Source: Pseudodesulfovibrio pelocollis
GTDB lineage: Bacteria > Desulfobacterota > Desulfovibrionia > Desulfovibrionales > Desulfovibrionaceae
Length of the DNA: 64,000 nucleotides
NCBI RefSeq assembly: GCF_030282845.1
Contig: NZ_JASTWE010000018.1
Location: 1 to 64,000, forward strand
Direction: 5' to 3'
Below, piece by piece: positions 11,511 to 22,157 of this stretch (positions are counted from its first letter, which is position 1; every line of letters starts with the position of its first letter). The notes beneath the pieces were generated by a model, which was not told where the DNA came from, made no database searches, and saw nothing but the letters and a program-made list of their open reading frames with translations. The position numbers were made by a program, and so were the translations under genes.

Positions 11511-14015
11511 TTAAGAGCAATTTTCTTTGCAAGGTTCCTTCCCGTCCTCTGATGCGGCCCGGGCTTCTTCTCGTGACGGTATCATGGCCATGACCACGGT
11601 GACGGCCACGCACAGGGCGTAGAAGGCCCACATGGCCTGGAATCCACTCAAGGCGAGCATGCTCCCGCCGGTGAAGACAAGGGTGGCCACCAGCAGGCCC
11701 AGCAGCGACTGGTACCCGATGGAGAACATCATCCACTTGGTGGAGTTGGACTGGTGGCGCACCATGATCGAGGTGGGGATGCACGGCGGATACAGGGCCA
11801 TGAAGAGCATCAGGGCCAGGGCGTGCAGCGGGGTGAACCCGGCCTCTTCCTGCTTCATGCTCTCCTCCACGGACTGGCCGGAACCGTCGATGCCGTAGAT
11901 GGCACCCAGGGTGGCCGCGCTGTTTTCCTTGGCCGCGAAGGCGGACAGGAGCGCGATGTTGATACGCCAGTTGAATCCGGCGTACTGGGTGACGGGCTCG
12001 ATGGCGCGGCCGACCACGCCGAGGAAGCTGCCCTCGAACCGCTCGGTGCGCATCTCGCGCCGCAGCTGCTTGCGAACAGAGACGACTTTGCGAAGCTCCC
12101 GGTTCAGGGTGCGCCCGGAGTCGCCCTGCCGCCTGACCACGGCCGAATAGACCGGATTGGCGGTATCGAAGCGCTCGTTGATGGTGTCGGACACGGCCTG
12201 ATCGGTCACGCCCACCTTGGCCTGCCTGAGGGCCTCGTCAAAGAGGATGATGCCCAGCACGTCGTCGTGGGTGATCACGCCCTTGTATTCGGTCTTGTCC
12301 ACCTCGACCATGAAGGCGTCGATGGCGGCCTTCTCCTCGGCGGCGTAGTGGGCCCTGCGCGTGTCGCTCAGGCCCGGGAAGTTGATGAGCACGAAGATGA
12401 CCACGGCCACGGCCGCCACCACGGTGATGATCTTCTTCACGAAAAGCCAGGTGCGCTCGATGGAGCGACGCGCCACCCCGCCCATGGTCGGCACATGGTA
12501 GGGCGGCATCTCCATGATGAAGGGTGCCTGTTCCTTCTTGCGCAGGATGGTCAGGGAGAGCGCCTTGGCCACGGGCAGGGCCATGAACAGGGTCACCGTG
12601 GCGATGAAGAACATGGCCAGCCCGCCCATCTGCGGGAAATAGGCGTCGATCAGGATCAGATACAGCGGCACCTTGGCCAGGCAGTTCATCATGGGCACGA
12701 TGAGGATGGTGGCCAGCCGGGCGCGCTCGTCGGGGATGGCCTTGGTGGCCATGACCCCGGGGATCGCGCAGCCGCCCACATACACTCCGCCTAGGATCAT
12801 GGGCAGCGTGGACTGGCCGTGCAGGCCGAAGCGCCGGAAGAGCCGGTCGAGGATGAAGGCCATGCGCGGCATGTATCCGCTGTCCTCCATCGCGGCGATG
12901 AAGGCGAAGAGCAGCAGGAAGATGGGCAGGTAGTTGAGAATGGCGGTCATGGACTTGACCACCCACTCGCCCAGGGAGCGGACAAGCGGGTCCTCGGCAA
13001 AACCGGCCGCAGGCAGCATATCCGAGACAAAGGTCTCGATGCCGCCCCAGAGGGGCCACACCTCGGCCGCCAGCCAGCCGCCAAAAACGATGGAGACCTG
13101 ATACAGGGCCAGCAGGATGAGCACGAGAATGACCGGGCCGAGGAAGCGATGGCAGATGAACCGGTCCGCCCTGTCCGACAGGGAGCGCCCCCTGCCCTCC
13201 TCGACCGCCACCACCTCGCGCGCGATGCGCCCTGCGGCGGCGTGCCGGGCATAGGCAATATGGCGCTCGATATCGCGCCCCTCGCCTTCGAGGAACCCGG
13301 CCCGCGCCAGGACCACTGCGTCGAGCACGCCCTGCGGGGCCGAATGGACGCGGCGCAGCAGGACCTCGGCCTCATGATCGTTCTCAAGCAGCTTCACTGC
13401 CAGCCAGCGCACGGGATACTGGGCACCCAGGGTCGGGTCTCCGGCCAGCATGGCTGAAATTTCATCAATGCGGGATTCGAGGGGGCCGTAATCCACCACG
13501 AACGGGGCCACGGTCTTCTCGGCGTGGGCATGCTCCACGGCGATGCGGACGGCCTCCTTGCCCTCCCCCTTCTTGGCCACGGTCGGCACCACCGGGACGC
13601 TGAGCAGTTGCTCCAGCTTGGCAATGTCCACGCTCTGGCCGCGCCGGGTGGCCACGTCCATCATGTTCAGCGCCACCACTGTGGGCACTTCCATCTCAAG
13701 GAGCTGGATGGTGAGATAGAGGTTGCGCTTGAGATTGGAGGCGTCGGCCACATCGATGACCACGCCGGGGTTGTCGTTGAGCAGGAAATCCCGGGCCACC
13801 CGCTCTTCCAGGGAATAGGACGTCAGGCTGTACGTTCCGGGCAGATCCACCAGTTCGACGCGCATGTCGCCCAGGGAGAAAAAGCCCGTCTTCTTCTCGA
13901 CGGTCACGCCCGGATAGTTGGCCACATGCTGCCGGGCTCCGGTGAGCATGTTGAATACGGTCGATTTGCCGCAGTTTGGCTGTCCCGCCAAGGCGACCAG
14001 AAGACTCGAACTCAT
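11511..14015 (-). CDS. feoB: Ferrous iron transporter FeoB
   Basis: FeoB imports Fe(II) across the inner membrane. At 834 aa it is longer than usual (about 700-770). The cytosolic G domain shows G1 GQPNCGKS (11-18), G2 Thr in NYPGVTVE, G3 DLPG (57-60) and G4 NMMD (117-120), followed by a helical domain. The membrane part holds both gate motifs, including GGCAIPG (414-420). A hydrophilic insertion of about 110 residues (551-660) separates two membrane helices, where typical FeoB has a short loop. The start overlaps the feoA stop by 4 bases, showing coupling. Confidence 0.97.
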   Translation of the reverse strand: MSSSLLVALAGQPNCGKSTVFNMLTGARQHVANYPGVTVEKKTGFFSLGDMRVELVDLPGTYSLTSYSLEERVARDFLLNDNPGVVIDVADASNLKRNLYLTIQLLEMEVPTVVALNMMDVATRRGQSVDIAKLEQLLSVPVVPTVAKKGEGKEAVRIAVEHAHAEKTVAPFVVDYGPLESRIDEISAMLAGDPTLGAQYPVRWLAVKLLENDHEAEVLLRRVHSAPQGVLDAVVLARAGFLEGEGRDIERHIAYARHAAAGRIAREVVAVEEGRGRSLSDRADRFICHRFLGPVILVLILLALYQVSIVFGGWLAAEVWPLWGGIETFVSDMLPAAGFAEDPLVRSLGEWVVKSMTAILNYLPIFLLLFAFIAAMEDSGYMPRMAFILDRLFRRFGLHGQSTLPMILGGVYVGGCAIPGVMATKAIPDERARLATILIVPMMNCLAKVPLYLILIDAYFPQMGGLAMFFIATVTLFMALPVAKALSLTILRKKEQAPFIMEMPPYHVPTMGGVARRSIERTWLFVKKIITVVAAVAVVIFVLINFPGLSDTRRAHYAAEEKAAIDAFMVEVDKTEYKGVITHDDVLGIILFDEALRQAKVGVTDQAVSDTINERFDTANPVYSAVVRRQGDSGRTLNRELRKVVSVRKQLRREMRTERFEGSFLGVVGRAIEPVTQYAGFNWRINIALLSAFAAKENSAATLGAIYGIDGSGQSVEESMKQEEAGFTPLHALALMLFMALYPPCIPTSIMVRHQSNSTKWMMFSIGYQSLLGLLVATLVFTGGSMLALSGFQAMWAFYALCVAVTVVMAMIPSREEARAASEDGKEPCKENCS

Positions 14016-14236
14016 TGGCGTTCCACCTCGACATACCTGGCCTCGTCGTGCCGGATGCTTACATTGTACCCGTCAAGGTGCAGCACCACGGGATCGACCA
14101 GCGGCGCGTTGCGCACCACTTCAATGTTCGCGCCCGGGCAGAAGCCCAGGTCCATGAGCCGCTGCCCGAGTGGTCCGGCGGTGTGCAGATCCACCATGAC
14201 GCACAGCGTGCCGGGCTTCATCTCATCCAGTGTCAT
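14012..14236 (-). CDS. feoA: FeoA (first of two copies), SH3-like
   Basis: A 74-aa SH3-like cytosolic protein that supports FeoB. It shows the family core from LDEMKPG through LMDLGFCPGANIEV to VVLHLDGYNVSIR. Start ATG at 14236 follows a purine-rich site within 8-14 bases. The stop overlaps feoB, so the two are translationally coupled; this copy is the one directly tied to FeoB. Confidence 0.93.
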   Translation of the reverse strand: MTLDEMKPGTLCVMVDLHTAGPLGQRLMDLGFCPGANIEVVRNAPLVDPVVLHLDGYNVSIRHDEARYVEVERQ

Positions 14237-14290
14237 TCCCTGTTCCCCCTTGATCCGGCCAGACCGGATCCGTTGCAAGTGATATTCGCG

Positions 14291-14339
14291 CCGCGGATCG
14301 CCATTTTGCACCATACTGCGGTTTTGCGATCATCCGCGG
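14291..14339 (-). repeat. Inverted repeat between the two feoA genes
   Basis: Arms 14291-14301 and 14326-14339 are complementary apart from a 3-base bulge. The repeat lies just past the stop of the upstream feoA copy. No T run follows, so a processing or regulatory role is as likely as termination. Confidence 0.5.
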
Positions 14340-14598: not shown

Positions 14599-14655
14599 TT
14601 GCAATTGATAATGAATTTCGGTATCAGGAATAGGCTTTGGGGCGCAAGAGGTCAA
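14599..14655. promoter_or_regulatory. Divergent promoter region with Fur box
   Basis: Bases 14607-14625 match 14 of 19 positions of the classical Fur box. In the plus direction, TTGCAA (14599-14604) and TATCAG (14622-14627) with 17-base spacing place the box in the spacer of a possible fur-paralog promoter. In the minus direction, TTGACC (14650-14655) and TATTCC (14627-14632), also 17 apart, would drive feoA with the box just downstream. The hexamers are imperfect; the box is the stronger call. Confidence 0.6.
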
Positions 14656-14779: not shown

Positions 14780-15265
14780 GTGAAAGAGGCACTCAAGACA
14801 TTCAAGAACTATCTGGCCACCAACAGGCTCAAGCTGACACAGCAGCGGCTGCTCATCTTCAAGGTGTTCCTGAGCCAGGATTCGATGCTGACCTCGGAGG
14901 GATTGCTTCGGAAGGTCGCCGAGATGGACGACACCATCAGCCGGTCAACAGTCTACAGGACGGTCAGACACCTGCACCAATCCGGCGTAGCCCGCTGCAT
15001 CCGGCTGGCCGACGGCACCACCCACTATGAGCCCATGGGCGACCACCACAGCCGCATGGTCTGCGAGCGGTGCGGCCGCCAGTTTCCGCTGATCAACCCC
15101 TACCTCGACTGCCTCCAGCGCGAGTCGGCCCGGCAGCAGGGGTTCACCCTCTTCCACTTCCAGACAGTGCTGCACGGCCTTTGCCACGACTGTACCAATC
15201 AAACCAGTGGCGTCGCGGACCGCGCATGGGACGCAGTTCACGACGCGACACGGGAGAAACAATGA
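14780..15265 (+). CDS. Fur-family regulator with altered metal site
   Basis: A 161-aa Fur-family repressor: winged helix (about 1-80, with the recognition segment STVYRTVRHL) and a C-terminal dimer domain. Two CxxC pairs (CERC and CHDC) form the structural zinc site. Where canonical Fur has HHDH, this protein reads HHSR, so the regulatory metal site is partly changed. Start GTG at 14780 with GGAGAGG upstream is preferred; TTG at 14759 is possible. It is divergent from feo across a shared Fur box and overlaps the next small ORF by 4 bases. It could be Fur, a Zur-like protein or a non-metal variant. Confidence 0.85.
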   Translation: MKEALKTFKNYLATNRLKLTQQRLLIFKVFLSQDSMLTSEGLLRKVAEMDDTISRSTVYRTVRHLHQSGVARCIRLADGTTHYEPMGDHHSRMVCERCGRQFPLINPYLDCLQRESARQQGFTLFHFQTVLHGLCHDCTNQTSGVADRAWDAVHDATREKQ

Positions 15266-15531: not shown

Positions 15532-15969
15532 CTACGCCGCAGCCCCAGAGCAGGCTGGGCAGATGCCGAAAAGAACCATGCGGTGCCGGGTCAGGGTGAA
15601 GCCGTTCTCTTCGGCAAGGGCCGCCTGTCGGCGCTCGATGGTCTCGTCCACGATCTCCACCTTGCGGCCGCACTGGGCGCAGACCAGATGGTCGTGGTGG
15701 GCGTGGCCGTAATGGTGCTCATAGAGGGTCACCCCCTCGCCCAGGTCAAAGGCGTCGGCCAGGCCGGATTCAACAAGCAGCTTGAGGGTCCGGTAGACCG
15801 TGGCCTGACCGATGTCAGGCGCCTGTTTCGACACGCGGGAGTAAAGCTGCTCCGCCGTGAAGTGCCCCTCGTTCTCAAGGAAGCTCTCCACGATCACCCT
15901 GCGCTGGTGGGTCAGGCTCATCCCGTTGTCGCCCAGAAACTCAATGAACACCTGTCTTGCCGATTTCAT
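15532..15969 (-). CDS. fur: Ferric uptake regulator Fur (canonical form)
   Basis: A 145-aa Fur-family protein. The winged-helix domain ends in ATVYRTLKLLVESGLA, the canonical regulatory site HHDH is present (in GHAHHDHLVC), and the zinc CxxC pairs are CAQC and CPAC. Start ATG at 15969 has AGGAGAGG upstream; the reading from 15996 adds nine residues without a site. It converges with the other Fur paralog and follows the unknown gene of the Sia operon by 23 bases. It is the better candidate for the iron-sensing Fur acting at the boxes in this window, though a PerR role cannot be excluded. Confidence 0.88.
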   Translation of the reverse strand: MKSARQVFIEFLGDNGMSLTHQRRVIVESFLENEGHFTAEQLYSRVSKQAPDIGQATVYRTLKLLVESGLADAFDLGEGVTLYEHHYGHAHHDHLVCAQCGRKVEIVDETIERRQAALAEENGFTLTRHRMVLFGICPACSGAAA

Positions 15970-15992: not shown

Positions 15993-16454
15993 TCAAAACC
16001 CGGCCGCAGCCAGAAAGCGCGCCGTGACCACGCCGCTGGCGATGTGCTTCCTGGTGGCATCTGTCAGCTCAAGCTCGCAGACGATGTCCAGCGGCACGCT
16101 GTCGTAGGCGGCGGTCAAGACCATCTCGAAGTCGCGACGCAGCCGGGAAAAAGCCTCTTCCACGTCGCCGAAGGTGGCCCCGGGGCCCCGCCAGGGCAGG
16201 GTCAGGGTCTCCCCATGGCTCTTCATCACATGGCTTGGCGTCATCAGCCGATGCCAGCCTGGCAACGCCCCGGCCCGCTCGTCCTGGCCGGGATGACAGA
16301 AGGAGCGCCAGGCCGATGGCGGCCGGACCACGGCCTTGTCCAGCACCACCTGGGGCACCGCCAATTCGATCTCGAAGGGCTCCAGTTCGATGGAGTAACT
16401 GAGCACGGGCCGATGATAGCCGCGCCGTTTCCTGATTTCCCATTGCATCTTCAT
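15993..16454 (-). CDS. Unknown protein at the end of the Sia/MoxR operon
   Basis: A 153-aa soluble protein with no recognised domain. It starts with a basic segment (IRKRRGYHRP), then a beta-rich part (VLSYSIELEPFEIELAVP) and a C-terminal part ending in VVTARFLAAAGF. The start overlaps the VWA gene stop by 4 bases (ATGA), so it is translationally coupled and probably works with the VWA protein or MoxR ATPase. No signal peptide or membrane helix. No function is assigned. Confidence 0.75.
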   Translation of the reverse strand: MKMQWEIRKRRGYHRPVLSYSIELEPFEIELAVPQVVLDKAVVRPPSAWRSFCHPGQDERAGALPGWHRLMTPSHVMKSHGETLTLPWRGPGATFGDVEEAFSRLRRDFEMVLTAAYDSVPLDIVCELELTDATRKHIASGVVTARFLAAAGF

Positions 16455-17800
16455 GCGCCATCCTCCCTGTCCGCCACCTCGACCATGTCGCCGAAGGGGG
16501 GGACGGTCCCGCCGCCGCCCACGCGCGCCCAAAGTACCGGATACTCCGGCTCGCGCTCGGGAAAACGGGGGCACTCCATGTCCGTGAGATACACGAGGCA
16601 TGCCGGGACCATGCCCTCGGCCTCCACCCAATCAAAAACCGGTCGATAGTCGGTTCCGCCGCCGCCCACAGGCTCGATCTCCAGGGGGAGATCAGCCCGG
16701 CTGAAGATGCGGACCGAGGTCAGCCCCGCGTCGCAGCAGAGCACATGGACCGTGGTGTCGTAGGTTTCAAGCAAGCCGGAAAGCTCGGCCACGAACTGTT
16801 CCAGCTCCCGATCGTCCACGCTGCCCGAGGTGTCCAGGGCCAGGACCACCTCCGGGAGCCTGCGATGCGAGAGGGACGGCAGGATCACGTTCATGTGCAG
16901 AAAACGCCTGTTGGGCGGGGTCCAGCTGTAGTCGTCCCTGGCCCGCTCGCTGATGTACCGGGAGAGCAGCTCGCGCCAGTCGAGCCGGGGCGTGAGCAGC
17001 TCGCGCACCAGCCGCTCCAGGCCGCCGGGCAGCTCGCCGGACTCACGCGCCTGGCGCACGGCATTGGCCAGGGCGATCTCCCATTCCTGGTCTGTTTCGT
17101 CGCCCGATGGCCCGCCTCCGGCGTCAAGGTCGCGGGAGTCGCGCACCTCGCCGCTGCCGCCCGGATCACCGGACATCTCGGATTGCATCTGCGCCTCCTG
17201 ATCGCCATCATCGTCGCCCCCTTCGCCGCCCCCGTCGCCATCGTCGCCAGCCTTTCCCGCACCATCGCCACTGTCGGCGGGCTCGCCGGGCTCGCCTTGC
17301 TCGTCAGTGTCGCCGGGGCTGGGCAGGACTTCGTGCTGCTCTTTCTCACCCGTTTCGCGGCCATCGCCGGTGCCCTCCGAGGGCATGCCGTCGCTGCCGC
17401 GCACGGCGGCCAGCTCGGCATAGATGGCGTCCGCGCTCATGCCCCGGTAGACGGAATCGTCCAGATGGCCCGGCGGCAGGGTGAACCCCGCGTCCAGAAG
17501 CACCCAGTTGATGGCGTGGTCGCAGGCCGCATTCCACAGCCCGGCATCGCGCCCGTTGCGCCGAACATGGTGCTGGCAGGCTGGATGCATGACCGTGTGG
17601 GCGAGCATGCCCAGCACCTGGGCCTCGCTCAGGCCCTCGACAAAGGCCGGGTTGTAGGCAAGGACGCGGCCATCGGTCCAGGCCGTACGGCAGGAACGAT
17701 CCTCCCGTGGCTCCATGCGCATGCACAGGGAACCGAAAAAGGGATGGTCCAGCAGCAGCGAAGTCCGCGCCCGGACCACTTTCTTGCGGGCCGCGTCCAT
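16451..17800 (-). CDS. DUF2201-type VWA protein with degenerate peptidase motif
   Basis: A 449-aa cytosolic protein. The N-terminal DUF2201-like peptidase domain has HTVMH at 68-72 and a later His pair (77-78), but the usual HExxH Glu is Thr, so peptidase activity is doubtful. A long acidic, Gly-rich linker (about 150-240) follows, then a C-terminal VWA-like domain with an intact MIDAS (LDTSGSVDD, and LTDME further on). MoxR ATPases and such VWA proteins act as pairs that assemble or remodel partners, and moxR lies directly upstream. Start ATG at 17800 is preferred over 17854, which would overlap moxR. Confidence 0.85.
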   Translation of the reverse strand: MDAARKKVVRARTSLLLDHPFFGSLCMRMEPREDRSCRTAWTDGRVLAYNPAFVEGLSEAQVLGMLAHTVMHPACQHHVRRNGRDAGLWNAACDHAINWVLLDAGFTLPPGHLDDSVYRGMSADAIYAELAAVRGSDGMPSEGTGDGRETGEKEQHEVLPSPGDTDEQGEPGEPADSGDGAGKAGDDGDGGGEGGDDDGDQEAQMQSEMSGDPGGSGEVRDSRDLDAGGGPSGDETDQEWEIALANAVRQARESGELPGGLERLVRELLTPRLDWRELLSRYISERARDDYSWTPPNRRFLHMNVILPSLSHRRLPEVVLALDTSGSVDDRELEQFVAELSGLLETYDTTVHVLCCDAGLTSVRIFSRADLPLEIEPVGGGGTDYRPVFDWVEAEGMVPACLVYLTDMECPRFPEREPEYPVLWARVGGGGTVPPFGDMVEVADREDGA

Positions 17801-17802
17801 GG

Positions 17803-18786
17803 TTAAAAGAGCACATCCGAGTTGGCCGTGGCCCAGTCGGAAAAGGCCGGGCACTCCACCACGCAGGGGGCAGTCCTGACCGAATCACGCACCAGGAGCA
17901 CAGCGAACTCGGCGGGCAGCCGCGAGGCATAGGTGATGATGCTCCCGGCGGTGTCGGCTCCGGCCTTCCTGGCCAGGGCGCCGCACAGGGCATACAGGGT
18001 GGCCGGTTCCTCGGGGATCTCGGCCACATCGGGGCGGTCGATGACCGCGTCGGGGTCGGGCAGTTGGCGATGGATGCGGGCGAATCCGATGAACTCGGCC
18101 GCCGCGCCAGGCCCGACCGCGCCGCGCAGCAGATCCGCCTCCACCTCCGGGGCCGGTCCGGCCGCGAGCATCCGGGCAGCGAACTCCCAGGACCGGGGCG
18201 AAGGAAACGCCTTGTCGTCGCGCTTGGGGTCAAAGCTGTGCAGCAGATTGGGCCGGTAGCGGACAAAGGCGCGAACTTCGTCGGGCAGCCCCTGCGCCGC
18301 GGCCCAGTCGAGCCACTGGTCCACGTCTACCTCGAAGTCGAGATGCACGAACCGGTTGGAAAGGGCCGAAGGCATCCTATGGGTCACGGCCCGGTCGCCC
18401 TCGCGGTTGCCCGCCGCGATCACGGTCCACCCCTCGGGCAGCTCGTATTCGCCCACGCGCCGGTCCAGGATGAGCTGGTAGCAGGCGGCCTGCACCAGCG
18501 GCGGCGCGGCGTTGAGCTCGTCGAGGAAGAGCACGCCCCGGCCCGAGACGGGCAGGAAGGCGGGCGGGCACCAGCGGGCCGTGCCGTCGGCCGAGACCGA
18601 GGGAATGCCGCGCAGGTCCACGGGATCGAGCAGCACGGCCCGCAGGTCGGTCAGCTCGCATTCAAGCTCGGCGGCCACCTGGGCCACCACCTGACTCTTG
18701 CCCACCCCGGGCGGGCCCCAGATGAACACGGGCTGGCGGATGGGAATGAGCGTCCGCAGGGACGCCTTGATCTGGCTTGGGGTCAC
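17803..18786 (-). CDS. MoxR-family AAA+ ATPase
   Basis: A 327-aa AAA+ ATPase with Walker A GPPGVGKS (24-31), Walker B GVLFLDELN and the sensor segment IAAGNREGD. It lacks a long extra domain. MoxR proteins act as chaperone-like ATPases with VWA partners, and the VWA gene follows after 2 bases. It sits after siaC, so it appears to be part of the same transcript as the signalling genes, which is an unusual link. Target complex not known. Confidence 0.9.
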   Translation of the reverse strand: MTPSQIKASLRTLIPIRQPVFIWGPPGVGKSQVVAQVAAELECELTDLRAVLLDPVDLRGIPSVSADGTARWCPPAFLPVSGRGVLFLDELNAAPPLVQAACYQLILDRRVGEYELPEGWTVIAAGNREGDRAVTHRMPSALSNRFVHLDFEVDVDQWLDWAAAQGLPDEVRAFVRYRPNLLHSFDPKRDDKAFPSPRSWEFAARMLAAGPAPEVEADLLRGAVGPGAAAEFIGFARIHRQLPDPDAVIDRPDVAEIPEEPATLYALCGALARKAGADTAGSIITYASRLPAEFAVLLVRDSVRTAPCVVECPAFSDWATANSDVLF

Positions 18787-18811: not shown

Positions 18812-19198
18812 TCAATCCACGTATTCCACGAGGTTGAACCGAATGTTTTGCACGTCTTCCATGAACTCCTCGCCGCACTCCATGGCGGTCTCGTTCTCCT
18901 CGTGGTAGCGCCAGTTGACCACGATGGTGCGGCCCTTGGCGGCCTCGGAGTCGAGCATGTCGAAGAGGTCCATGAAGGTCTTGGAGGAGGAGCTGTTGAA
19001 GTAGAGTATCTCCATGTTCAGCTCCACCCGATCGTTGCGGGCATCGGACAGGAACCGCTCAAGCCAGTCAAAGACCGGGCCATAGAAGCCTGAGCAGTTT
19101 TCCGGGTAGGACTCGCCCCGAATCTCCAGGATGCGGGTCTCGGGGTCGAAATCTATGTGCGGGGACGACTTGGTCGCCTGAACGCTGAAACGGGTCAT
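18812..19198 (-). CDS. siaC: SiaC-like regulatory phosphoprotein (DUF1987)
   Basis: A 128-aa DUF1987/SiaC-family protein. In Pseudomonas aeruginosa, SiaC is switched by kinase SiaB and phosphatase SiaA, and unphosphorylated SiaC stimulates the diguanylate cyclase SiaD. The conserved loop reads YFNSSSSKT (66-74), where the Ser69 position matches the regulatory Thr/Ser of the family. All partners are encoded upstream in this operon. Family assignment is firm; the mechanism is carried over from the known system. Confidence 0.88.
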   Translation of the reverse strand: MTRFSVQATKSSPHIDFDPETRILEIRGESYPENCSGFYGPVFDWLERFLSDARNDRVELNMEILYFNSSSSKTFMDLFDMLDSEAAKGRTIVVNWRYHEENETAMECGEEFMEDVQNIRFNLVEYVD

Positions 19199-19207
19199 GG
19201 CAAACTC

Positions 19208-19762
19208 CTACTGGGCCACTACTTTCATGGAAAAAAACGAGGTCTCGCAATCCAGAGGAACAAAGTCGTAATCCATGGGCCGCGACGACTGGCGGGCCAT
19301 TTCGATGAAGCCGAGGCCAGCGCCCTTGGAATCCGTGTCAGGCAGGCTGCGGCGGCGTTCGCGATAGTAGGCCTTGAGATCCTGCCTGCCCATGGCGCGC
19401 AACGCCTCAAGCTGGCTGGCCAGCCTGTCCACATCCTCGGCGCGCACCTTGTTGCCGCAGGCCACGAAGAAGCTGCCGTCGCTCTCGCGACCGACAACAA
19501 CCTGGCCATGGGCCATCTCGCCCAGTCCCTCGCAAGCGTGAAGGGAGCGCTCGGACGAATAACGCACGATGTTCTGCATCTGTTCCACCAGGATGGAGAA
19601 GACACGCTGCACGCTGGCCATGCCCGCGTCCTCGGCGCGCATCTTCTCGCGCATGAGTCCAGCCAGCCCCTCGACCATGGTCTGGGACACCGGCCCGTTG
19701 AAATAGAGGATTGTGCCCTTGGCCCTCATTTCTTCGTAATATTTGTACAAATTAGATGCCAT
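19208..19762 (-). CDS. siaB: SiaB-like protein kinase (DUF6272)
   Basis: A 184-aa protein of the SiaB family, a GHKL-like kinase that phosphorylates SiaC. The N-terminal part (YKYYEEMRAKGTILYFNGP) and the helix with VEQMQNIVRYS, carrying the Asn expected of a GHKL N box, are visible. A downstream Gly-rich segment KGAGLGFIEMARQS fits the ATP lid. ATG at 19762 is the start; the 284-aa reading runs back into the siaA gene. It lies between siaA and siaC. Confidence 0.87.
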   Translation of the reverse strand: MASNLYKYYEEMRAKGTILYFNGPVSQTMVEGLAGLMREKMRAEDAGMASVQRVFSILVEQMQNIVRYSSERSLHACEGLGEMAHGQVVVGRESDGSFFVACGNKVRAEDVDRLASQLEALRAMGRQDLKAYYRERRRSLPDTDSKGAGLGFIEMARQSSRPMDYDFVPLDCETSFFSMKVVAQ

Positions 19763-19773
19763 ATCATCCTCCG

Positions 19774-20952
19774 TCACTGTACCTCGAAGCCGAGTACGGT
19801 CATGTCGTCGCGGCGGGGCTCGTCGCCCTGATAGGCCTTGACCAGGTCCAGCAGATCCTGGCCGATCCCGCCCACGGGCCGATCCGCCCGTTCTTCCAGA
19901 AACCGCATCAGCCGACTTTTGCCAAAGGGCAGCCGCCGGGGGCCGCCCACCTGATCCACGATGCCGTCGGTGGCCATGCAAACCCGGATTCCGGGCGACA
20001 GCGCCAGCTCGACATCGGTAAACAAGAAATCCCGCGGCGAGCGGACATGGCCGAGGCCGCAACGGTCGCCCCGGATGCGACGGGCCCTGCCCGCTTCAAC
20101 CACATACAGGGGCGTGTTGGCCCCGGCGAAGACAAGGCGATGCGCCCCGGGCGAAATATGGCACAGGGCGCAGTCCATGCCGTCGTCGGAACGGGCCTCG
20201 CCCCCCTTCTGACCCAGGGCGTCCTTGATCAGGGTGTTGGCCCTGGCCAGCATTCCCGCCGGAGAAGTATCCCCCTCGACCAGCGCTTTTTCCAGAAGCG
20301 ACTGCACGATAAGGGTCATGAACGCGCCGGGCACGCCATGGCCCGTGCAGTCGATCACCCCGACAAAGAAGCCGTCGCCCCAAGGCTTGACCCAGTAGGC
20401 ATCGCCGCCCACCACGTCTCGTTGGCACCAGAGCAGAAAATGGTCGGGCAGCACGGCCGCAAGCTCTGCCTCGTCGGGCAGGAAGGCGGCCTGGATGTGC
20501 GAAGCGTAGTCGATGCTTTCAAGGATCTGGTTGCGCGCCTCGGCCAGGGCCTGCATGGCCGTGGCAAGCCTGTGCTGGCGGCTGGCGATGGCATGGCCCA
20601 TCCAGTGCATGTTGCGCTTGAGGTTTGCGAAGTCATGCCGGTCCTCTTCATCGGGCGGCGGCTCGGTCATGACGTACTCACCGCGCTTGAGCAGCTGGCA
20701 CTGGACGTTGAGTTCGCGGATATTGCGCAGGGCGATGACATGGCTCAGCCACTTGGCCAACGGCACCACCAGGATGATGCCGACCACCAGAAACCCGACC
20801 ATGAAGTTGATGACCCCCTCCTGCGCGCCGGAATGCCAGAGCACCAGGGCGGTCAGGGGAAAGGCCACCATGGACGCGCAGAGCACGGCCGTCATCTTGG
20901 CCTCGACACTCATGGACGAGGCGGCCCGGAGCAGACCCGAGGCGGCGCGCAT
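19774..20952 (-). CDS. siaA: SiaA-like PP2C/SpoIIE phosphatase
   Basis: A 392-aa membrane-bound serine/threonine phosphatase. Two N-terminal membrane helices (about 20-45 and 48-70) flank a very short outer loop, unlike the larger sensor domain of Pseudomonas SiaA, and are followed by a HAMP-like linker. The PPM/SpoIIE domain shows metal-binding motifs GVIDCTGHGVPGAF, MATDGIVDQ and RRDDMTVLG. It likely dephosphorylates the SiaC-like protein. Start ATG at 20952 has GGAGGG 7 bases upstream. Confidence 0.88.
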   Translation of the reverse strand: MRAASGLLRAASSMSVEAKMTAVLCASMVAFPLTALVLWHSGAQEGVINFMVGFLVVGIILVVPLAKWLSHVIALRNIRELNVQCQLLKRGEYVMTEPPPDEEDRHDFANLKRNMHWMGHAIASRQHRLATAMQALAEARNQILESIDYASHIQAAFLPDEAELAAVLPDHFLLWCQRDVVGGDAYWVKPWGDGFFVGVIDCTGHGVPGAFMTLIVQSLLEKALVEGDTSPAGMLARANTLIKDALGQKGGEARSDDGMDCALCHISPGAHRLVFAGANTPLYVVEAGRARRIRGDRCGLGHVRSPRDFLFTDVELALSPGIRVCMATDGIVDQVGGPRRLPFGKSRLMRFLEERADRPVGGIGQDLLDLVKAYQGDEPRRDDMTVLGFEVQ

Positions 20953-20954
20953 GG

Positions 20955-22097
20955 TCAGCCCTCCCCGCCGTCCGGGCAGGCCGGACCGTGTTCCGCGCTC
21001 CTGCGCGGGCAGACCGACCGGCGATAGACCTCCACCCGGTCCCGGCCGTTCTTCTTGGCTGCGTACAGGGCGATGTCCGAATACTTGAGCAGCGAATCGA
21101 TGCTGTCCTGCGGCCCCTCAAGCGAAGCCAGACCGATGGACACGGTCATGCGCAGCGGCCCGGCCAGGGACTCGACCACGGCCGCTCGCACGGCCCGGGC
21201 CACCCGGGCGGCCACGGCGCAGGCGTCCTCCACCGAGGCATCGGGCAGCAGCACGGCGAATTCCTCGCCGCCAAGCCTGGCGACCACATCCACCTCGCGA
21301 ACCGACTCGTCGAACAGGCGGGCCAGCTCCACGAGAGCGATGTCACCCGCATCGTGGCCGTGGGTATCGTTGATCGCCTTGAAGTGGTCCACGTCGATCA
21401 TCAGCAGCGCAAGGTCGCACCCCTTGCGTCTGGCCCGGTTCAGTTCACGTCCGGCCAATTCCATGAAATATCCGCGGTTCCACATGCCGGTCAGGCTGTC
21501 AGTGCGTGCCAGACGGCACATTTCCTCGATCATTGCCTTGCGCTCCGTAACATCCACCAGCACGCCGACAACGCTCCCGGGGCCTGCTCCGTCCGCCGCC
21601 ACCACACTGGCGCTTATCTCGACCCACAAGGCGTCCGAACCCGGGCCGCAAACGCGGGCCTCGTAGCGCCGGGCGTCTCCCGAGACGAGCAGGGCCTCGT
21701 AAATCCGAAAGTCGTCCGGGTCACTGAAGATGCGGTGCAGCACGCCCACCTCGGCCACGAACGCCTCCGGACCCCCGCAGCCGAACATGGCCGCCATGGC
21801 CGGGTTGACCTCCACCAGACGCCCGGCCGAATCGCACCGATAGATGCCCTCGGTCACATTCTCGAAGATGCTCCGGTATTTGCCTTCGCTGGCGGCAAGA
21901 TCGCGGTTGAGGTTGCTCAGGGTCTGCTGCATGCGATCACCCATGGTGACCAGTCTGCGGCTTTGGCGATAGAGCTTCTCGTACTCGGCCACCAGCACGG
22001 CAAAGGCGCTGGCGTCGCACTGCCCGGCCTCTCCGCCCAGAGCCTCACGGGCTATGGCCAGCACCCGTTCTTCCCTTCTGAACACTTCCTTCTGCAT
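20955..22097 (-). CDS. siaD: PAS-GGDEF diguanylate cyclase (SiaD-like)
   Basis: A 380-aa soluble enzyme making c-di-GMP. An N-terminal helical segment (1-75) is followed by a PAS domain (about 80-200, YRSIFENVTEGIYR) and a GGDEF domain with the active motif RLGGEEF. The I-site RxxD (REVD) lies five residues before GGEEF, so feedback inhibition is expected. Start ATG at 22097 has AGGGGG upstream; an earlier in-frame ATG lies within the promoter. It is the first gene of the operon, next to SiaA, SiaB and SiaC homologues, which makes it the likely target of SiaC. Confidence 0.9.
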   Translation of the reverse strand: MQKEVFRREERVLAIAREALGGEAGQCDASAFAVLVAEYEKLYRQSRRLVTMGDRMQQTLSNLNRDLAASEGKYRSIFENVTEGIYRCDSAGRLVEVNPAMAAMFGCGGPEAFVAEVGVLHRIFSDPDDFRIYEALLVSGDARRYEARVCGPGSDALWVEISASVVAADGAGPGSVVGVLVDVTERKAMIEEMCRLARTDSLTGMWNRGYFMELAGRELNRARRKGCDLALLMIDVDHFKAINDTHGHDAGDIALVELARLFDESVREVDVVARLGGEEFAVLLPDASVEDACAVAARVARAVRAAVVESLAGPLRMTVSIGLASLEGPQDSIDSLLKYSDIALYAAKKNGRDRVEVYRRSVCPRRSAEHGPACPDGGEG

Positions 22098-22128
22098 GGT
22101 TCCCCCTGGCGGCGTGTCGCCCGGAAAA

Positions 22129-22157
22129 GTGATATTGAAATTCATTTTCATTGTCAA
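22129..22157 (-). promoter_or_regulatory. Fur-controlled promoter of the Sia/MoxR operon
   Basis: On the minus strand, a perfect TTGACA (22152-22157) and TATCAC (22129-22134) are 17 bases apart. The spacer contains a Fur-like box (22131-22149) matching 15 of 19 positions of the classical box. A repressor bound here would cover both hexamers. The start codon lies about 25 bases past the predicted start point. Confidence 0.75.

Follow-up and report, generated by a model that had tools for sequence, protein, structure and literature searches.

The promoter of a putative c-di-GMP operon in Pseudodesulfovibrio pelocollis raises the question of whether iron supply, read by the regulator Fur, sets the expression of a diguanylate cyclase (DGC). 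The promoter lies within a stretch of 64,000 nucleotides (contig NZ_JASTWE010000018.1, positions 1 to 64,000), referred to here as the window, which was analysed as a whole. The initial annotation of this DNA had placed the Sia genes in the same window as feoAB and two Fur-family genes, and their positions were borne out by annotation.

The promoter and its Fur boxes

Read on the minus strand from 22157 to 22129, the promoter consisted of TTGACA, the spacer ATGAAAATGAATTTCAA and TATCAC. This reading confirmed both the perfect TTGACA -35 element (22152..22157, minus strand) and the spacer length of 17 bases that had been proposed from the sequence. TTGAC(N) was found at the same position at other loci, from several genera. 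The -10 element (TATCAC, 22129..22134, minus strand) was weak, matching at four of six positions, and a TATCAN -10 was kept in L045, L046, L055, L056, L123, L124 and L135. A generic promoter scan missed the promoter, as it requires a T at the last -10 position and the -10 element is weak. A ribosome-binding site, AGGGGGA (22101..22107, minus strand), preceded the ATG at 22097.

The 17-bp spacer coincided exactly with a Fur box (Fur box 1, 22135..22151, minus strand), which differed by a single mismatch from WTGAAAATNATTTTCAW, the published delta-proteobacterial Fur palindrome. Using a weight matrix built from published Fur sites (maximum score 30.1), the box scored 28.3. A second box, ATGAATTTCAATATCAC, was shifted by 6 bp and overlapped the -10 element (Fur box 2, 22129..22145, minus strand, score 18.9). 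Overlapping boxes offset by 6 bp are a feature of Desulfovibrio Fur sites (PMC545781). The initial annotation had reported a 15/19 Fur-box match inside the spacer. The count was right for the E. coli Fur 19-mer (22131-22149, plus strand; two such matches in the window), but the location was not, as the match reaches four bases into the -10 element and is not wholly contained in the 17-bp spacer. The E. coli 19-mer was not retained as the sole basis for the box, being weaker evidence than the delta-type 17-mer.

The operon and its relatives

The first gene of the operon (20955..22097, minus strand) encodes a DGC of 380 aa, in which an N-terminal stalk is followed by PAS and GGDEF domains, as recognised by Pfam and by motifs. 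GGEEF and the RxxD I-site were both intact. The stalk carried the motif RQSRRLVTMGDRMQ, and its stretch RRLVTMGDRMQ resembled published SiaD residues that contact SiaC. Queried alone against PDB, the stalk of the window DGC returned no match, and none to 7e6g; the shorter cyclase of L113 aligned to 7e6g from the stalk onward. The next three genes, all on the minus strand, were Sia-like. They encode a SiaA-like PP2C/SpoIIE phosphatase with a short membrane part (19774..20952; Pfam SpoIIE, PDB 6k4e with E=3e-50, catalytic motifs), a SiaB-family protein kinase (DUF6272, 19208..19762; 191 bits for NCBIfam SiaB_fam_kinase against a cut-off of 85, PDB 6kko_A) and a SiaC-family phosphoprotein (18812..19198; Pfam SiaC 154 bits, PDB 6kko_C). 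The SiaC protein possessed a serine at the T68 position, with the phosphosite N68-S69-S70. NCBIfam equivalog cut-offs were missed by SiaA (231 < 700), SiaC (117 < 150) and SiaD (181 < 290), and we therefore consider these three to be Sia homologs rather than Pseudomonas equivalogs. Judging from their sequences, the Sia homologs of the window probably work like Sia.

A gene for a MoxR-like AAA ATPase (17803..18786, minus strand; Pfam AAA_5/AAA_3) began 25 bp behind siaC and was followed by one for a CoxE-like VWA protein (16451..17854, minus strand; Pfam DUF2201), in an order conserved in the genus. The latter, coxE, is likely to be the last gene of the operon. Within the genus the MoxR and CoxE/DUF2201 pair (16451-18786) was tied to the sia operon, and for Desulfovibrio desulfuricans G20 an independent prediction lists a MoxR-CoxE operon among the Fur targets (PMC545781).

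Cyclase orthologs were detected in 12 same-genus relatives; in a single relative the ortholog was split over two frames. In all 13 same-genus loci examined (L001-L013, window included), a strong Fur box preceded the operon, positioned 50 to 610 bp ahead of the cyclase and usually accompanied by a partner shifted by 6 bp. The box was kept in orthologs with 57-86% protein identity, although the flanking DNA had diverged. The order cyclase, SiaA, SiaB, SiaC, MoxR, CoxE was found in 11 relatives, with a gap of 1.4 kb ahead of MoxR in one. In most same-genus relatives fur adjoined the operon, and feoAB often did as well. Extra small genes separated the box from the cyclase in five same-genus loci. 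A DUF2325 gene was found in this position in L050 and L051, and short ORFs in L049, L052 and L053; the ORFs of L052 and L053 (about 62 aa) had a single predicted membrane helix, and that of L052 had no Pfam match. In L056 (G009) the cyclase and SiaA were each split into two frames, possibly owing to decay or sequencing error, and extra Fur boxes preceded both the DGC and SiaA.

Two promoter layouts were recognised. In the clade of the window and in several other genera, TTGAC(N) and a TATCA-like -10 element were 17 bp apart, and the box itself filled this spacer. The remaining loci and species had TTGACA-17-TATTNN, with the box just downstream and covering the start region. As far as can be judged from sequence, both placements would suit repression.

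Across Desulfovibrionales, SiaC was found in 70 of the 348 genomes. We fetched 72 loci, and the tree of SiaB and SiaC contained 71 rows, including the window. All Fur-boxed loci fell into one group of 43 rows, made up of 35 boxed loci, four that were cut or not scored and four unboxed ones. With an SH-aLRT support of 82 on its branch, this group is likely, though not certain, to be one clade. A Fur box was present at the operon in 35/39 scorable loci inside the group and in 0/28 outside it (Fisher p = 6e-15, kinship ignored), and comparable sites occurred in 1.2% of random 1.7-kb control windows taken from the outside loci. Two genomes, G088 and G289, each possessed a boxed sia locus alongside an unboxed one, and they serve as a within-genome control. 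When Sia loci outside Desulfovibrionales were scanned, no delta-type Fur box was found at the operon, though other phyla may have different Fur motifs.

The four box-less members of the group had feoB within the operon (one locus) or feoAB directly behind it (three loci). In four genomes from three genera (L113, L125, L121 and L107), siaA and siaB flanked feoB, with all three genes on one strand. The order in L113 (1087-8214) was Fur box, Cys-rich periplasmic protein, DUF4198, SiaA, FeoB, SiaB, SiaC and GGDEF. In g50 (L134), feoAB lay directly behind sia, and a gene pair resembling the Cys-rich and DUF4198 periplasmic genes adjoined the sia-feo genes.

Such arrangements might mean that the Sia module has been redirected, with partner switching acting on FeoB or on MoxR-CoxE and with c-di-GMP as one output only. 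The position of feoB between siaA and siaB, the feoAB genes that directly follow sia in g50 and the joining of MoxR-CoxE to the operon in the genus of the window all point in this direction. However, almost every complete locus of the clade encodes a GGDEF protein with GGEEF, and the SiaC-binding-like stalk motif was kept wherever it could be read. A shared operon alone, moreover, does not demonstrate physical coupling. We regard such a redirection as possible but rather unlikely, and favour a Fur-controlled operon for c-di-GMP synthesis.

The regulator and the strength of the motif

If Fur does control the cyclase operon, a candidate for the protein that binds the box is the Fur-family regulator adjoining the operon (15532..15969, minus strand; Pfam FUR 116 bits), which most genomes of the genus had in the same place. 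This fur gene, located behind coxE, had a strong Fur box of its own about 30 bp upstream in the relatives L047, L049, L106 and L111, and lacked one in the window. A second Fur-family regulator was encoded nearby (14780..15265, plus strand; Pfam FUR 78 bits), and a third Fur-family gene was found elsewhere in the genome, at C29. The window also contained the feoA-feoB ferrous iron transporter (11511..14314, minus strand), in which FeoA was identified by Pfam and FeoB had 70-91% identity in relatives. A weaker Fur box preceded feoA (14605..14621) and was the second best in the window, with a score of 19.1.

A pattern search of the 3.43-Mb genome recovered five sites with at most one core mismatch. 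One was Fur box 1. Of the other four, two preceded a fur paralog and an HD-GYP-like gene, and two preceded genes for a DUF2325 protein and a periplasmic DUF4198 protein. With up to two core mismatches there were 14 sites, compared with one for a reversed control, and a two-mismatch site was located upstream of a second feoB in the genome. The genes behind the sites with two mismatches or fewer plausibly form a Fur regulon. The small DUF2325 gene (L058:216-497; G000 contig C7, site 180) had its Fur box 37 bp ahead. The HD-GYP-like gene (L057:3277-4086; G000 contig C4, site 103861), which had a one-mismatch Fur box upstream, encodes an HD_5 protein with the motif HHERFDGAGYP and is probably the hdd of Rodionov 2004. 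Fur control may extend to a c-di-GMP phosphodiesterase of this HD_5/HD-GYP-like type, and the Fur-boxed gene suggests that iron may set both the synthesis and the breakdown of c-di-GMP.

The presence of two Fur-family genes in the window and of a third at C29 leaves room for the box to be read mainly by another member of the family, a PerR- or Zur-like protein, in which case the signal would be peroxide or another metal. Neither of the two paralogs in the window scored above the curated NCBIfam cut-off for Fur, which would agree with this. However, the same motif was found before feoA/feoB and the fur paralog in this genome and in relatives, and the published iron regulon of these bacteria carries an identical motif (PMC545781). 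The sia clade is also tied to feo and not to peroxidase or zinc genes. A PerR- or Zur-like reader is improbable, and Fur itself is preferred as the regulator.

The score of Fur box 1 (28.3) exceeded the best values reached when the 64 kb were Markov-shuffled 100 times (19.7) and when the local 100 bp were shuffled 20,000 times (20.1). For the delta-type 17-mer it was the sole match in the window at three mismatches or fewer, the mean in shuffles being 0.12. That the resemblance to a Fur box arose by chance from AT-rich sequence in an ordinary promoter is disfavoured and hardly credible, for although the Fur consensus is itself AT-rich and promoter-like and a 15/19 match that occurs twice in the window is not decisive alone, no shuffle reached the score, every same-genus ortholog kept the box at 57-86% protein identity despite diverged flanks, and just 1.2% of the random 1.7-kb control windows held a comparable site.

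Fur repression is the best reading of the site, given the rarity of the motif, its presence in 13/13 orthologs, the single boxed Sia clade and the exceptions that carry feo. Fur control of the operon, as claimed in the initial annotation, is supported as a prediction by the motif, the same-genus boxes, the 35/39 boxed clade loci, the adjacency of fur and feo and published predictions. It is very probable that Fur binds exactly at the promoter of a c-di-GMP operon. We consider it highly likely that the site works as a Fur operator within the core promoter of DGC-siaA-siaB-siaC-moxR-coxE, that the operon is repressed by iron and that c-di-GMP synthesis is then gated by Sia. The weak -10 element, the missed equivalog cut-offs of SiaA, SiaC and SiaD, the choice among three Fur-family proteins and the four clade members with no scorable box weigh against this reading. 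Since the Fur-box link has been kept in dozens of related sulfate reducers, iron shortage is probably wired directly to a c-di-GMP signal.

From the operator, operon order, fur/feo association and intact motifs that were observed, we infer Fur binding, repression and, on derepression, a rise in c-di-GMP. With plentiful iron, Fe2+-Fur would occupy the two overlapping boxes, in the spacer and over the -10 element, and block RNA polymerase; this predicted repression step is strongly supported by sequence comparison. With scarce iron the operon would be derepressed together with feoAB. A second, post-translational gate would operate as in Pseudomonas aeruginosa, with SiaC phosphorylated by SiaB and dephosphorylated by SiaA. 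Unphosphorylated SiaC would then bind the DGC stalk and switch on c-di-GMP synthesis. Homology suggests this gating of the cyclase by SiaA, SiaB and SiaC, and the intact GGEEF and I-site motifs, taken with the Sia homologies, point to c-di-GMP as the product of the operon. Aggregation may be the outcome, by analogy with P. aeruginosa SiaD.

Comparison with known systems

The prediction of a Fur-GGDEF link in Desulfovibrio (2004) and the Fur repression of a Yersinia pestis diguanylate cyclase are already known. Within the open-access literature, an iron-dedicated Sia clade, some members of which have feoB between siaA and siaB, appears to be new. In that literature SiaC, FeoB and Fur were found together only in a general review of chelation and iron pathways, and no paper was found on DVU0763. 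We tentatively suggest that Desulfovibrionaceae possess an iron-dedicated Sia clade in which both the synthesis of c-di-GMP and the transport or handling of Fe2+ would be set in amount by Fur and in activity by SiaA-SiaB-SiaC phosphorylation. If so, iron status and sessile life would form one regulated unit, with FeoB inside the operon and MoxR-CoxE at its end. This would link the iron status of sulfate reducers, organisms that corrode iron and form iron sulfide, directly to c-di-GMP and in a way that can be tested. The Sia switch, which has been studied in Pseudomonas with carbon and temperature cues, would also have a clade tied to iron by its operator and gene neighbourhood.

The Fur regulon predicted in 2004 for Desulfovibrio vulgaris and D. 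desulfuricans G20 includes gdp, which encodes a GGDEF protein, and a MoxR-CoxE operon (PMC545781). It resembles the present case in its 17-bp operator, its 6-bp-shifted box and its GGDEF and MoxR-CoxE targets. Unlike in the window, gdp and MoxR-CoxE are separate there and no Sia genes are mentioned. The exact published gdp operators of D. vulgaris and G20 had no match among the genomes searched, which included neither strain.

The Y. pestis diguanylate cyclase HmsT is not known to have a partner switch of the SiaA-SiaB-SiaC kind or to be encoded in a feo-linked operon. It is similar in that its gene is a direct target of Fur repression at the promoter and that Fur lowers c-di-GMP; binding to hmsT and its repression were proven by footprint and reporter (PMC3528687).

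P. aeruginosa SiaABCD has the homologous phosphatase, kinase, phosphoprotein and cyclase, and the phosphosite position is kept, along with a putative counterpart of the stalk motif (PMC8457831, PMC7647112). Unlike in P. aeruginosa, the DGC of the window is encoded first in the operon and has a PAS domain, the phosphosite has a serine in place of threonine, SiaA lacks the large N-terminal part and MoxR-CoxE has been added. The predicted input also differs, being iron through Fur here and the carbon or temperature cues named for Pseudomonas (PMC8457831, PMC7647112).
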